Origin: a bacterium
Lineage (GTDB): Bacteria; Desulfobacterota; Binatia; Binatales; Binataceae
NCBI GenBank assembly: GCA_014896235.1
Contig: JADBKU010000023.1
Coordinates: 1 to 64,000, forward strand
Direction of reading: 5' to 3'
DNA: 64,000 nucleotides
The notes under the pieces were generated by a model. The model was not told the origin of the DNA. It was given only the letters and a program-made list of their open reading frames with translations, and ran no database searches. Below are positions 43,004-52,344 of the stretch, one piece after another. The position numbers were made by a program, and so were the translations under genes. Positions within the stretch are counted from its first letter, which is position 1, and each line of letters begins with the position of its first letter.

Positions 43004-44233
43004 TCATGGATCGCTGTCGGCGGGGATGCCGGTGGTGAAGGCGGCGACCTCGCGCTGCCATTGCTGTCCGAAGGCGAAAATCAGCACCTGCCGATTGATT
43101 TGCTGATCGTGCAGCAGGCTTCGCCAGGTGCCGCCGCCCGCGTTCGCCATCGTCTGATACGCGTGTTGCGTCTGCAGGTAGAAGCCGGGCATCGGTTGCG
43201 CGAGCATTTTCGCCGGCGAGATGCCCTCGCTTTTGGCCCATTCTTCAACGAAGCGTTCGTGCTCCTCTTTGGTCACGTCCACCGTGTTGAAGGTTCCGTT
43301 CTCCAGCCGGAACTTGGTGATTTCCGCCATCACCGGCGCCATGTCTTCGTCGAACGGCGGCGTGTCGCCGACGAGCACGATTACCTTGCGCGCTGACGGC
43401 CGCCATTCCATCCGATCGACGGCGGCTCGAATCGCGCCCAGCGTGTCTTCCTGCCACTCGCCGCCGTTATGCGCCGTGATGTTGTTCAGGAACTGGATCA
43501 ATACTCCCGGCGAAATCGTCAGCGGCTGCGATTCGATCGGCTCGCCGCGCCCGCCGAAGACGACGATGCCGATACGCGCCGTCGGCACGAGGCGATGAAT
43601 GGCGAGCACCAGTTGTTTCATCCGGGTCTTTACGTCGTTGATGATCAGCTTCATCGAACCGGTGCCGTCGATGATCAAAACGACGTCGAGCCCGCTTTTG
43701 CGCAGGCCGCTGATAAAGCCGCCAAAGCCCGAACCGAGGCCCGCTCCGTAACCCGAACCGATTCCGCCGCCCCGGCCGATGCCGATTCCGGCGCCGCCGG
43801 AAATTTCGCGCACGTAATGCGTCGCTTCCGCCACCGCTTCCGAACCGTGAATGGCGACGACTGGACGTGCGATCGGCATCGGCGCCGCCATCTCCGGCAT
43901 CTGCATTTCGGGCAGGTTGAGCTGCTTCAACTCGGCGCCGGGGCTCTTGTTTCCGCCGCCGCCGGATTCAAAATTTACCGTAATCAGATTGCGCGCCGCC
44001 TCGAAATGCACGCCCCAAAACAGAAAGAGCAGCACCAGAACGTGAATGGCGATCGATATCGGCAGCGGTCCTTCCATGAAGCGGAGCGCGTTGCGCAAGC
44101 CCGCCCGTCGTTCCGCCGGTTCCCCCGAAGCGGCCGCGAGCGAGCGCCGATTGCGCGCCATCAGCAGATAGATCGCGACCGCGACGATCGCCACCGATGC
44201 GGCTAAAAGCGCGCCTATTTTGGCGCTAATCAT
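43004..44233 (-). CDS. Membrane-anchored VWA-domain protein of an ExbB/ExbD operon
   Basis: 409 residues. Helices at 6-24 and 57-75; then a Pro/Met-rich linker (107-122, LPEMQMPEMAAPMPIARP), a Gly-rich hinge (146-173), and a periplasmic or exposed VWA domain with a MIDAS variant DGTGSM (D189-T191-S193). The architecture after helix 2 resembles a TonB/TolA stalk, but ends in VWA instead of a TonB C-terminal domain. Last gene of the operon; likely driven by the ExbB/ExbD proton motor. Target unknown. Confidence 0.88.
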   Translation of the reverse strand: MISAKIGALLAASVAIVAVAIYLLMARNRRSLAAASGEPAERRAGLRNALRFMEGPLPISIAIHVLVLLFLFWGVHFEAARNLITVNFESGGGGNKSPGAELKQLNLPEMQMPEMAAPMPIARPVVAIHGSEAVAEATHYVREISGGAGIGIGRGGGIGSGYGAGLGSGFGGFISGLRKSGLDVVLIIDGTGSMKLIINDVKTRMKQLVLAIHRLVPTARIGIVVFGGRGEPIESQPLTISPGVLIQFLNNITAHNGGEWQEDTLGAIRAAVDRMEWRPSARKVIVLVGDTPPFDEDMAPVMAEITKFRLENGTFNTVDVTKEEHERFVEEWAKSEGISPAKMLAQPMPGFYLQTQHAYQTMANAGGGTWRSLLHDQQINRQVLIFAFGQQWQREVAAFTTGIPADSDP

Positions 44234-44312
44234 CGGAATTCGCCCCGACTGGATCGGCTTCTACTCGAACTAGACCCGGCCCGGCGCCGGAAAATTCATC
44301 GCGCGCGCGCAT

Positions 44313-44825
44313 TTACGGAATGCCGCCTTCCGACGGCGCCACCGCTTCGGGAGCGGGCGCCTCGGGTTCGGCCATCGGCGTCGGCGCCGATCCCGGCGCG
44401 TTTGCGGCGCCGCCGGCTTCGCCCGATACGGCAAGCGCGATGCGTTCCGCTCCGGCGCCCTTGGCGATATCAAGAATCCGCACCATGTCGCCCAAAATCA
44501 CCCTCGCATCGCCGTCAAAGACGACTACCTTGTCGGGCGATTTGCCGAGCGCCTCCTTGATCGCCGCGCCGAGGTCGCCCTCGATAACCGGCTGTTGATT
44601 CACGAATATGCGATGGTCCGCGGTGTAGGTGACGGTGACGGTTTTTTTCTGCTGATTGGCCTGCTGCTGTTGCATCTGCGGCAAATCGACGTGTGCGGCC
44701 GATTCGATCGTTACCGCCGTCGCGACCATGAAAATAATCAGCAGGACGAGGAAGATGTCGGTGAGCGGCGTGATATTGATCGAGGCGAAGATTCCGCCCT
44801 CTCCGTTGCCCGTCTGAATCGCCAT
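44313..44825 (-). CDS. exbD: ExbD/TolR-type biopolymer transport protein (second copy)
   Basis: 170 residues. Single helix ITPLTDIFLVLLIIFMVATA containing the proton-pathway Asp, then a periplasmic TolR/ExbD domain (VTYTADHRIFVNQQPV, VVVFDGDARVILGDMVRIL). A Pro/Ala/Glu-rich tail of about 35 residues is extra compared with the first ExbD. Works with ExbB to use the proton gradient. Confidence 0.93.
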   Translation of the reverse strand: MAIQTGNGEGGIFASINITPLTDIFLVLLIIFMVATAVTIESAAHVDLPQMQQQQANQQKKTVTVTYTADHRIFVNQQPVIEGDLGAAIKEALGKSPDKVVVFDGDARVILGDMVRILDIAKGAGAERIALAVSGEAGGAANAPGSAPTPMAEPEAPAPEAVAPSEGGIP

Positions 44826-44854
44826 CGAAATGCTCTATGCTCGACCTTGGAGCG

Positions 44855-45292
44855 TCAGCTTCCGGATTGCGGCAGCGGCGGAAGGTTCGTCACCCGCTTG
44901 GCGGCGATCGCGATTTGAGTCGCGCCCGCCGCTTTCGCGACGTCGAGAATGCGCGCCACGTCGCCCAGTATGGCCGTCCGATCGCCCTGGAAAATCACGG
45001 TCTTCACGTCGACGCGGCTGAGCGCGTCGCTGAGCGCATCCTGCAGGTCGTTTTCCGGAACGTCCTTGGAATTGACGAACAATTCGTGGTTCGCGGTGTA
45101 GGTGACGATCACGCCCTTGTTCTCTGGAGAGGTGTTCGTCGCTTCGGGCAAATTGACGTGAGTCGCCGATTCCACCGCGACCGAGGTCGTCACCATGAAA
45201 ATAATCAGCAGGACGAGGAAGATATCGGTAAGCGGCGTGATGTTGATTTCCCAGAACATCCCGCCGCCGCCGGATGGCGCGCTAATTGCCAT
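44855..45292 (-). CDS. exbD: ExbD/TolR-type biopolymer transport protein (first copy)
   Basis: 145 residues. Helix NITPLTDIFLVLLIIFMVTTS with the conserved Asp, then ESATHVNLPEA and a periplasmic domain parallel to the second copy (VTYTANHELFVNSKDVPENDL). It overlaps the end of exbB by 11 bases. The two ExbDs share a nearly identical membrane part but diverge in the periplasm, suggesting a heteromeric pair around the ExbB ring. Confidence 0.94.
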   Translation of the reverse strand: MAISAPSGGGGMFWEINITPLTDIFLVLLIIFMVTTSVAVESATHVNLPEATNTSPENKGVIVTYTANHELFVNSKDVPENDLQDALSDALSRVDVKTVIFQGDRTAILGDVARILDVAKAAGATQIAIAAKRVTNLPPLPQSGS

Positions 45293-45923
45293 TAGTGCGC
45301 TGTCCCCGCAGCGCCGCGTCGATCAGGCGCGCCGCGCAAATATGGATGGTCGCGTTAATCCGTTCGATCTTCTGCGAAAGGTAGTTGTAGAAGATCACGG
45401 CGATAATCGCGACCGCAAGGCCCAGCGCGGTCGAGATCAGAGCTTCCGAAATACCGGCCGCGACGACCGAAAATCCTCCAGTGCCCATGATCGCCATCGA
45501 TTGAAACGCCGCCAGGATGCCGACGACGGTGCCGAACAGGCCGATAAATGGCGCCGACGCGCCGGAAGTGGCCAACACCCAGATTAATCCGCGCAATTGC
45601 AGCAATTCGGCGAAGCGCCGCTCTTCGTCCACCTCTTCCAGGCGGGCGCGATCGGCAGAGGGCGCTTCGGCCAGCAGATCATGGAAGACCCGTTCGCCGG
45701 CGCTGCCGGGGCTTTTCACCCGGGCGAGCGCTTCGTCGAACTTGCCCTGATTCAACAGCCCGACCAAGCCGTCCGCGACATTGGAGGCGCGTGCGCTCAG
45801 GCCCCATAACGACCAGACCCGCTCAATAATCACGGTCACGCATACGACCGAGATCAGCAGAAGCGGATAGGTGGCGTACCACCCCTGCATGATCATCGCG
45901 ATAATGCTGAATTGCGTTTGCAT
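45282..45923 (-). CDS. exbB: ExbB/TolQ/MotA-type proton channel
   Basis: 213 residues with three membrane helices (about 15-35, 108-140, 155-180). The second and third carry GLIWVLATSGASAPFIGLFGTVVGILAAFQ and ALGLAVAIIAVIFYNYL, the MotA/TolQ/ExbB core. First gene of exbB-exbD-exbD-VWA on the minus strand. Couples the proton gradient to mechanical work of a stalk protein. Confidence 0.93.
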   Translation of the reverse strand: MQTQFSIIAMIMQGWYATYPLLLISVVCVTVIIERVWSLWGLSARASNVADGLVGLLNQGKFDEALARVKSPGSAGERVFHDLLAEAPSADRARLEEVDEERRFAELLQLRGLIWVLATSGASAPFIGLFGTVVGILAAFQSMAIMGTGGFSVVAAGISEALISTALGLAVAIIAVIFYNYLSQKIERINATIHICAARLIDAALRGQRTNGN

Positions 45924-50330: not shown

Positions 50331-50547
50331 GCTGGCGCGGACCGTCCGGCGGCGCCGGCGAATGCGAATCCCGAGATGTTATCGACGGACAAGGCGCGGG
50401 CGGTTCCCTGCGGCGCGCGCGGGGATTGCGCGCCTTTGCGGCGCGGGGCAACACTAAAGCGATGAGTCACGAGGGCAGGCCAAGGTTGGGCGCGCGGCGC
50501 GGCATCAGAGTGTCACGGTGAGAATCGACTCTGCTATAATTAGAAGC

Positions 50548-52344
50548 GTGTTGAAATCGTCGCAAGCCTCACCGGCAATTCTGGGAATCGTAATCGCGAC
50601 GGCCGCCGCGCTGGCGTTTGGCGCGGCTGGATGCGGCATGTTCGGATCGCGCGGCGGCGGCATGGTCGAGGCGTTGAGCGCCGATGGCGGCCATCCGTTC
50701 GGCGGCGCCGAGCCGGTCGAAATTCCGCCGCCGGCGCGCGCGATGGGGGCGTACTTGCAGGCCGAGGTCGCCGCGGAAAACGGCGATCGCAAACGGGCCA
50801 TGGAAGAGTACGAGGACGCCGTCAAATACGATCCGCATAACGCCGCCCTGCATGTCGAACTGGCCACGCTTTACGTGCGCGACGGACGGCTGCCGGACGC
50901 CCTCGAGCAATGCAACGAAGCGATCGCGCTCGATCCCGCCTACGTGCGTCCGCGCCTGCTCGCCGCCGGAATCGAGACCGCGACCGGCGACGACAAGAGC
51001 GCGATCGCGCAGTACCAGCAGGTGTTGAAGCTGGAGCCGGCGAATCAGGAAGCGTTTCTGTTCCTCGGCACGCTCTACGCCAAGAATGGCGATTACAAAG
51101 ACGCGGAAGACACCTTTAAGCAGTTGATCGCGCTCGATCCCGGATCGTTCCTCGGCTATTACTACGCCGGCCGCGTGACGACCGAAGCGCAAAATTATCC
51201 AGCGGCCGAGGCCTATTACAAAAAGGCGCTCGACCTGAATCCGCAATCGCAGCTCGTGCTGACCGACATGGCTGTGCTCCGCGAACTTGAAAACCGGCCG
51301 AAAGAGGCGATCGAGCTTTACCAGAAAGTTCTGCAGCTCGATCCGAAAAATGACGAAGTGCGCAAGCGGCTGGCCGAGCTTTACGGCGGCGACAAGAGCG
51401 TGGACGCGGCGGTGAGCCGCGAATTGAGCCGACAGGAACGGCTGGAGACGACGCCGGCCGACACCCGCACCAAGATCGGATTGTTGTTTTTCGAGCGCGG
51501 CGATTTCGACCGCGCGGCGACCGAATTCAACCTTGTGCTCGGCTCCGAACCGAAGAATTACCGGGTGCATTATTATCTCGGCACGGTTTACTCGGAGCTG
51601 GGCGAGAACGAACAGGCGCGGCGGGAATTCGAATTGATTCCCGAGAGCAGCGGCCATTATGTCGAAGCGCGCTTGCAGCTTGCCTATTTGAACGACAAGC
51701 GCAACGACTACGATGCGGCGATCGCGAATCTCAAGCAGGCGCTGGCGGTCAAGCCTAACGACACCGAAATCATGAGCTACCTGGTCGGCGTCTATCAGGA
51801 AAAAAAGGATTATCCGGACGCGATCGCGCTCGCGCAGCGGATGGTCGCGCTTGAACCGAACAACGACAAGTTTCATTTCACGCTTGGCGCGCTGTACGAC
51901 GAGGACAAGCAGAAGGACAAGAGCGTCGCCGAGATGCGCAAGGCGATCGAGCTGAATCCCTCCAACGCGCCCGCGCTGAATTATCTCGGCTATACCTACG
52001 CCGAATCCGGCAAGAATCTCGAAGAGGCGGAAAAGCTGATCAAGCGGGCGCTCGTGATCGAGCCCGACGACGGCTATTACGTTGACAGCCTGGGATGGGT
52101 TTACTACCAGAAGGGCGAATACCAACGCGCCGTCGATCAACTCGAACGCGCGGTTAATCTGACCGGCAGCGACCCGACGATCACCGAGCATCTGGGCGAC
52201 GCCTACCGCCGGATCGGCAAGCGCCTTGACGCCCGCCAGGAGTATCAGGACGCGCTCAAGAAGGCCCAGGATGCGGATCAGATTCATCGATTGCAGGACA
52301 AACTTGCCGCGCTCGGGGGATACGAGCAGCACGCGCAACATTGA
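50548..52344 (+). CDS. Tetratricopeptide-repeat lipoprotein
   Basis: 598 residues from GTG 50548; an in-frame GTG at 50518 is possible. The signal sequence ends in FGAAGC, giving a lipid-modified Cys. About 14 TPR units then fill residues 80-590, with repeats of A...YxxAL.L.P pattern, for example LGYTYAESGKNLEEAEKLIKRA and LGDAYRRIGKRLDARQEYQDA. Outer-membrane-attached scaffold for a protein complex. It overlaps the next lipoprotein gene, so they are coupled, possibly for envelope assembly. Confidence 0.88.
   Translation: MLKSSQASPAILGIVIATAAALAFGAAGCGMFGSRGGGMVEALSADGGHPFGGAEPVEIPPPARAMGAYLQAEVAAENGDRKRAMEEYEDAVKYDPHNAALHVELATLYVRDGRLPDALEQCNEAIALDPAYVRPRLLAAGIETATGDDKSAIAQYQQVLKLEPANQEAFLFLGTLYAKNGDYKDAEDTFKQLIALDPGSFLGYYYAGRVTTEAQNYPAAEAYYKKALDLNPQSQLVLTDMAVLRELENRPKEAIELYQKVLQLDPKNDEVRKRLAELYGGDKSVDAAVSRELSRQERLETTPADTRTKIGLLFFERGDFDRAATEFNLVLGSEPKNYRVHYYLGTVYSELGENEQARREFELIPESSGHYVEARLQLAYLNDKRNDYDAAIANLKQALAVKPNDTEIMSYLVGVYQEKKDYPDAIALAQRMVALEPNNDKFHFTLGALYDEDKQKDKSVAEMRKAIELNPSNAPALNYLGYTYAESGKNLEEAEKLIKRALVIEPDDGYYVDSLGWVYYQKGEYQRAVDQLERAVNLTGSDPTITEHLGDAYRRIGKRLDARQEYQDALKKAQDADQIHRLQDKLAALGGYEQHAQH

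Follow-up and report, generated by a model that had tools for sequence, protein, structure and literature searches.

A proton-motor operon with a putative vWA force transducer and its conservation among Binataceae genomes

In the proton-driven TonB motor of Escherichia coli, cryo-EM places Ser16 and His20 of TonB (within its SHLS motif) in contact with Ser34 and Trp38 of ExbB, and Trp38 and Pro190 are the other ExbB residues of the published TonB-contact network (PMC12215075). Recently, a class of vWA force transducers was predicted in which an SHLS helix, a disordered linker, and a vWA domain make up one protein, encoded beside tolQ-like, two tolR-like, and TPR genes (Williams-Jones et al. 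2025, Mol Biol Evol msaf138, PMC12204202); Planctomycetes and Verrucomicrobia are among the hosts that the paper names. The operon studied here was initially annotated as an unfamiliar use of the ExbBD machine, a view that is not supported, given that the same parts, the TPR partner gene included, are already predicted in that work. Since the operon combines an SxxxH helix, a vWA fold, a single tolQ-like gene with a pair of tolR-like ones, and a TPR homologue, it joins the predicted class as a member of the first of the two vWA families in that paper, an assignment matched by published description rather than by sequence comparison.

Here, we describe the operon in its window (the whole 64,000-nucleotide stretch of DNA analysed, from a bacterium of the family Binataceae) and follow its parts through related genomes, which provides an independent genome-wide test of a proton-motor class that has so far rested on prediction. 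The motor, the putative vWA transducer, and the TPR protein share their inheritance, also where their genes are unlinked, and anti-sigma fusions found in relatives offer a first functional clue for the vWA-motor class and, through the relatives' fused arm, a new handle on its job.

The operon and the architecture of its vWA protein

Four genes run in the order exbB-exbD1-exbD2-vWA from 45923 to 43004 on the minus strand, and the exbB gene, the two exbD genes, and the gene for a two-helix vWA protein were all recovered where the initial annotation had placed them. Its description of the operon as overlapping holds for exbB and exbD1, which share 11 nt in the sole overlap, and fails elsewhere, as exbD1 and exbD2 are separated by 29 nt and exbD2 and the vWA gene by 79 nt. 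Upstream lies a divergent gene (start 46387) that we take to encode an SDR protein, and downstream a convergent gene that is presumably recR, both named by sequence resemblance, so that the four-gene block stands as a unit of its own. A promoter scan gave no signal above chance. The features are as follows.

45282..45923, minus strand: exbB/tolQ-like motor subunit, 213 aa (Pfam PF01618, 2.6e-28)
44855..45292, minus strand: exbD1/tolR-like subunit, 145 aa, membrane Asp23 (Pfam PF02472, 8.9e-25)
44313..44825, minus strand: exbD2/tolR-like subunit, 170 aa, membrane Asp23 (Pfam PF02472, 3.2e-27)
43004..44233, minus strand: vWA protein, putative force transducer, 409 aa (PF13519, 2e-9, residues 184-290; PF00092 also matches)
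44162..44221, minus strand: first transmembrane helix of the vWA protein, residues 5-24, by hydropathy; specific to the host taxonomic family
44006..44065, minus strand: second transmembrane helix, residues 57-76, TonB/TolA-like, containing SIAIH; sequence GPLPISIAIHVLVLLFLFWGV
44042..44056, minus strand: SxxxH motor-binding motif, S60 and H64, by alignment of homologues
43691..43990, minus strand: periplasmic linker (predicted), residues 82-181, Pro/Met-rich then Gly-rich, by sequence; pLDDT under 50
43007..43690, minus strand: vWA domain with DGTGSM...GDTPP, a metal-ion adhesion-like site, by domain model and structure search
43652..43669, minus strand: DGTGSM, MIDAS-like motif, residues 189-194, by sequence

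On the motor side, the ExbB/ExbD Pfam families, the pore threonines, and the membrane Asp together identify the products as motor subunits. The equivalents of the E. coli pore threonines Thr148 and Thr181 are invariant in 43/43 vWA-linked ExbBs, as is the equivalent of Ser34, a TonB contact position, while the membrane Asp motif occurs in 70 of 72 ExbDs (of the two misses, one ORF is cut short by the end of its contig and the other is out of frame). Counting against TonB-like docking, the Trp38 equivalent is V/L/I and the Pro190 equivalent I/V in host-family vWA-linked ExbBs. The two ExbDs are distinct paralogues whose order is fixed in every host-family locus yielding both, which suggests that ExbD1 and ExbD2 probably form a heterodimer. 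An ExbB5:ExbD2 (5:2) stoichiometry is assumed by analogy with known motors.

The vWA protein itself shows the two helices, the Pro/Met-rich stretch (residues 107-125), the Gly-rich stretch (residues 145-172), and the DGTGSM site first read from its sequence, and it occupies the position expected of TonB or TolA and carries their motor-binding SxxxH. A short Arg-rich loop of about 30 residues lies between the helices; under the positive-inside rule, helix two would run from cytoplasm to periplasm and leave the linker and vWA domain periplasmic. In an alignment of 15 host-family homologues, S60, H64, and L71 are invariant, as are D189, T191, and D290. A script found SxxxH in 30 of 33 host-family rows; contig ends account for the three misses, and L149 and L150 do in fact carry the motif. 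Among vWA homologues of other families and classes, it is present in 13 of 14, L125 having AVLVH in its place. The last Ser of SHLS is replaced by Val in the window protein. Two N-terminal helices, by hydropathy, are a feature of 26/33 distinct host-family homologues as against 1/14 outside. Following the second helix, LITVNF is a candidate for the beta-strand motor box that the published first family has in its disordered linker; the linker here is modelled as disordered in a low-confidence model.

No Pfam match to TonB_C or to a TolA C-terminal domain was found in the window vWA protein. The full-length structure model was poor (pLDDT 43.8 with seven homologues as input), and AlphaFold2 of the vWA domain alone reached pLDDT 64. 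A structure search with this domain model returned vWA chains in the top rows (Z about 15-16), the best match being the proteasome Rpn10 vWA (Z 16.2, 2.5 A over 170 residues, VIA-align), while a sequence-profile search of solved structures gave no clear vWA relative.

Co-inheritance of motor, vWA gene, and TPR gene

The sample comprised 41 host-family genomes, 32 with this exbB and 9 without. The complete exbB-exbD-exbD-vWA order is present in 27 of the 32 and is split by contig ends in three more (G009, G010, and G016); with the order complete in 27/32 genomes, the gene set is conserved far beyond chance. Absence of the vWA gene beside exbBD in most relatives had been named at the outset as evidence against a single system, and nearly all of them have the gene next to the motor. 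Orthologues of the vWA gene were recovered in 31/32 of the exbB-bearing genomes and in 0/9 of the others (Fisher 2.9e-8, ignoring the tree); the family p-values are tree-naive, and a small number of loss events may account for the nine genomes without the motor. TolB is kept in 8/9 of the motorless genomes, which thus have not simply lost envelope machinery. Outside the host family, 13 of 14 vWA homologues adjoin exbB/exbD in an altered gene order with one or two exbD genes, and the fourteenth lies at a contig end.

Several side observations concern the vWA genes. Genus g14 (G034 and G035; loci L145 and L146) has exbB-exbD-exbD without an adjacent vWA gene; G034 carries a vWA gene on another contig, and none was found in G035. 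Separately, vWA paralogues with SxxxH and no adjacent exb gene occur at L031, L044, L045:10377-11873, L047, L053, L056, L057, and L058, the lack of exb neighbours at L044 being explained by a contig end, and some genomes carry several such copies. Secreted vWA proteins in L137-L142, which have neither the SxxxH helix nor exb neighbours, were set aside.

A further gene belongs to this set. Outside the host family, a large protein encoded next to the motor genes is a TPR protein by Pfam in L123, L125, L127, L131, L132, and L133, and operon neighbours in L129 and L134-L136 are of similar size. In this genome, the TPR homologue is unlinked (G000:C24:95932-98460, 25% identity to the L125 protein); in G024, G025, and G026, the TPR gene lies directly upstream of exbB, giving TPR-exbB-exbD-exbD-vWA. 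Across the 41 host-family genomes, TPR gene and motor are both present in 31, both missing in 8, and discordant in 2 (G009 and G011; Fisher 8e-7, tree-naive). A TPR lipoprotein in the window (50518-52344) was dropped as a candidate partner, as the homologue of the operon-linked TPR protein is the G000:C24 one. At three outside loci, a LolA-like lipoprotein (PF17131) is encoded beyond the TPR gene (L132:1615-3393, L135:3380-5158, and L136:1487-3301, all minus strand), a neighbour that may point to the trafficking of lipids or lipoproteins at the outer membrane.

The genome also holds other motors. Elsewhere lie a complete Tol-Pal locus (L066: TolQ, TolR, TolA, TolB, Pal, and YbgF) and a TonB locus (L067) that includes its own ExbB-ExbD and adjoins a TonB-dependent receptor, with TonB_C and TolB assigned by Pfam and the other Tol/TonB gene names read off the sequences. 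The vWA protein had been cast as replacing TonB/TolA; within the cell this is not so, as Tol-Pal and TonB exist with their own ExbB/ExbD pairs, and the vWA-linked exb genes are, as judged from sequence, a third proton-driven TonB/Tol-type motor in the genome. A separate TonB or TolA linked to the same exb genes, the other finding that would have spoken against the initial reading, did not appear in the 41 genomes: TonB_C proteins are present in all 41, but none is encoded closer than 29 kb to the vWA-linked type of exb genes (the nearest match, in G034:C11, is at 29 kb).

The genome's own TonB (L067:8390-9283, plus strand) has SVALW instead of SxxxH, and its partner ExbB has Gly at the Ser34 position. 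TolA has SAIAH, and its partner TolQ keeps the Ser, Trp, and Pro contact residues. With both sides changed in the one pair and both kept in the other, motif and partner residue appear to come and go together, in what is one comparison.

Proposed mechanism, rival readings, and anti-sigma fusions

We consider it likely that the operon encodes a proton-driven ExbB/ExbD motor with a dedicated vWA force transducer. The vWA protein is the most likely transducer because it keeps SxxxH, its gene order is conserved, it is co-inherited with the motor, no TonB or TolA lies nearby, and Tol-Pal and TonB have their own motors. Built around the observed gene content, motifs, conserved order, TPR co-inheritance, and vWA fold, the proposed mechanism would have the SxxxH helix dock on ExbB as TonB and TolA do, with the Pro/Met- and Gly-rich linker extending from the inner membrane into the periplasm and the C-terminal vWA domain standing where TonB and TolA have their head. 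The vWA domain would then receive, as force, the energy of the protons passing the motor, and it would most likely grip a protein partner via its metal site, the large periplasmic TPR protein G000:C24:95932-98460 being the best candidate for a partner or adaptor in such a contact. A role at the outer membrane may be supposed, and the mechanism can be phrased more broadly as one in which the motor either pulls the vWA arm or has the arm as its gate.

Relatives add an unexpected variant. In five genomes (G001, G003, G004, G018, and G037, confined to genera g2, g5, and g15), the gene after an ECF sigma gene joins a zf-HC2-like domain to the SxxxH helix and linker (L045:2958-5248, plus strand; L054:3-2227, minus strand; L157, L159, and L160). 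Contig ends cut three of the five ORFs, and the vWA domain can be seen in the remaining two, L045 and L054. The zf-HC2 Pfam cut-off is just reached in L054 (22.2 bits), with pattern only in the other fusions, and the sigma assignment comes from matches to region 4. In other genomes, homologues of the fusion-linked sigma factor pair with ordinary zf-HC2-like anti-sigmas lacking SxxxH. Fusion and operon arms of one genome share 99.2% identity over 258 bp in G018 and 94% over 720 bp in G004, versus 84-87% between a fusion arm and other fusions; because the fusion arm is closer to the operon arm of its own genome, the similarity points to gene conversion and shared constraint. This similarity is weakened by short contig-end overlaps for G003 and G037, and G001 is without such excess. 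In the pairs L045 and L060, L160 and L149, and L159 and L150, the fusion arm is far more like the operon arm of its genome than like other fusions, and contigs often break there. Assembly chimerism as the source of the fusions is disfavoured by their recurrence in five genomes and by G004:C138, where the gene runs uninterrupted, yet several fusions do end at contig ends. It is conceivable, though we would not expect it, that the proton motor acts directly on the anti-sigma factor via the vWA lever, with no outer-membrane receptor as in FecR-type systems. If true, the ExbBD-vWA motor also drives signalling, through an SxxxH-vWA arm grafted onto zf-HC2 beside a cognate ECF sigma.

These fusions bear most on the leading rival, which casts the vWA protein as sensing or regulating either the motor or gene expression, with vWA tension or ligand read through the SxxxH helix and, in relatives with the zf-HC2 fusion, an ECF sigma factor as the read-out. 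We hold this to be improbable: the five sigma/fusion loci, the ordinary SxxxH-less partners of the sigma homologues, and the near identity of fusion and operon arms in several genomes all favour it, but a cytoplasmic signalling domain is missing from the window protein, which has only the ~30 residues between its helices, the fusions are limited to three genera, and a passive sensor needs no motor. Least credible of all, and scarcely to be expected, is that the exb genes are a spare motor for the genome's TonB beside a fortuitous vWA neighbour. ExbB/D can serve several TonBs in other bacteria, and TonB_C proteins occur in 41/41 genomes; this reading, however, sits poorly with a TonB and a TolA that each have their own exbB/exbD and with a co-inherited vWA-exb pair whose linkage holds across families and classes, and it leaves SxxxH unexplained.

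A gliding or surface-adhesion machine like Myxococcus Agl-Glt, with one TolQ-like and two TolR-like subunits, TPR proteins, and a vWA adhesin, would seem quite unlikely, if somewhat less so than the spare motor. The analogy draws on AglR with AglQ/AglS, the same set of one TolQ to two TolR with TPR proteins (PMC3169522), and a gliding role was raised for vWA transducers by Williams-Jones et al. 2025 (PMC12204202), but here the vWA domain is borne by the inner-membrane transducer. The vWA protein as force transducer remains our preferred reading.

Comparison with known systems

The closest match is the first family of Williams-Jones et al. 2025, with which the operon shares a TolQ-like protein, two heterologous TolR-like proteins, TPR, and a transducer of SHLS-motif helix, linker, and vWA C-terminus. 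It differs in the extra N-terminal helix before the SxxxH helix, in a TPR gene that is unlinked in most host-family genomes, and in the motorless and anti-sigma-fused vWA paralogues; these features, the zf-HC2 fusions in five genomes among them, are new beyond the main text of that paper, as is the LolA-like lipoprotein (PF17131) beside the outside-family TPR genes. The second family, TPH-vWA (PMC12204202), likewise has a vWA protein adjoining a TolQ-like gene but is without tolR/exbD and SHLS, whereas the window operon has two exbD genes and SxxxH and falls outside it.

Compared with TonB-ExbB-ExbD, the ExbB/ExbD motor, the SxxxH transmembrane helix, and a Pro-containing linker are shared, while here vWA stands for TonB_C, there are two exbD genes, and no TonB-dependent receptor is linked. 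Tol-Pal (TolQRA) shares the SxxxH helix, and TolQ/TolR give the window ExbB/ExbD their best NCBIfam scores, below the cut-off; in contrast to that system, no TolB or Pal is linked, and a separate complete Tol-Pal exists in the genome. Finally, Myxococcus AglRQS-Glt has in common one TolQ-like and two TolR-like proteins and TPR proteins, but the operon described here carries its vWA domain on an inner-membrane transducer, and homology between the two is demonstrated for the motor families only.
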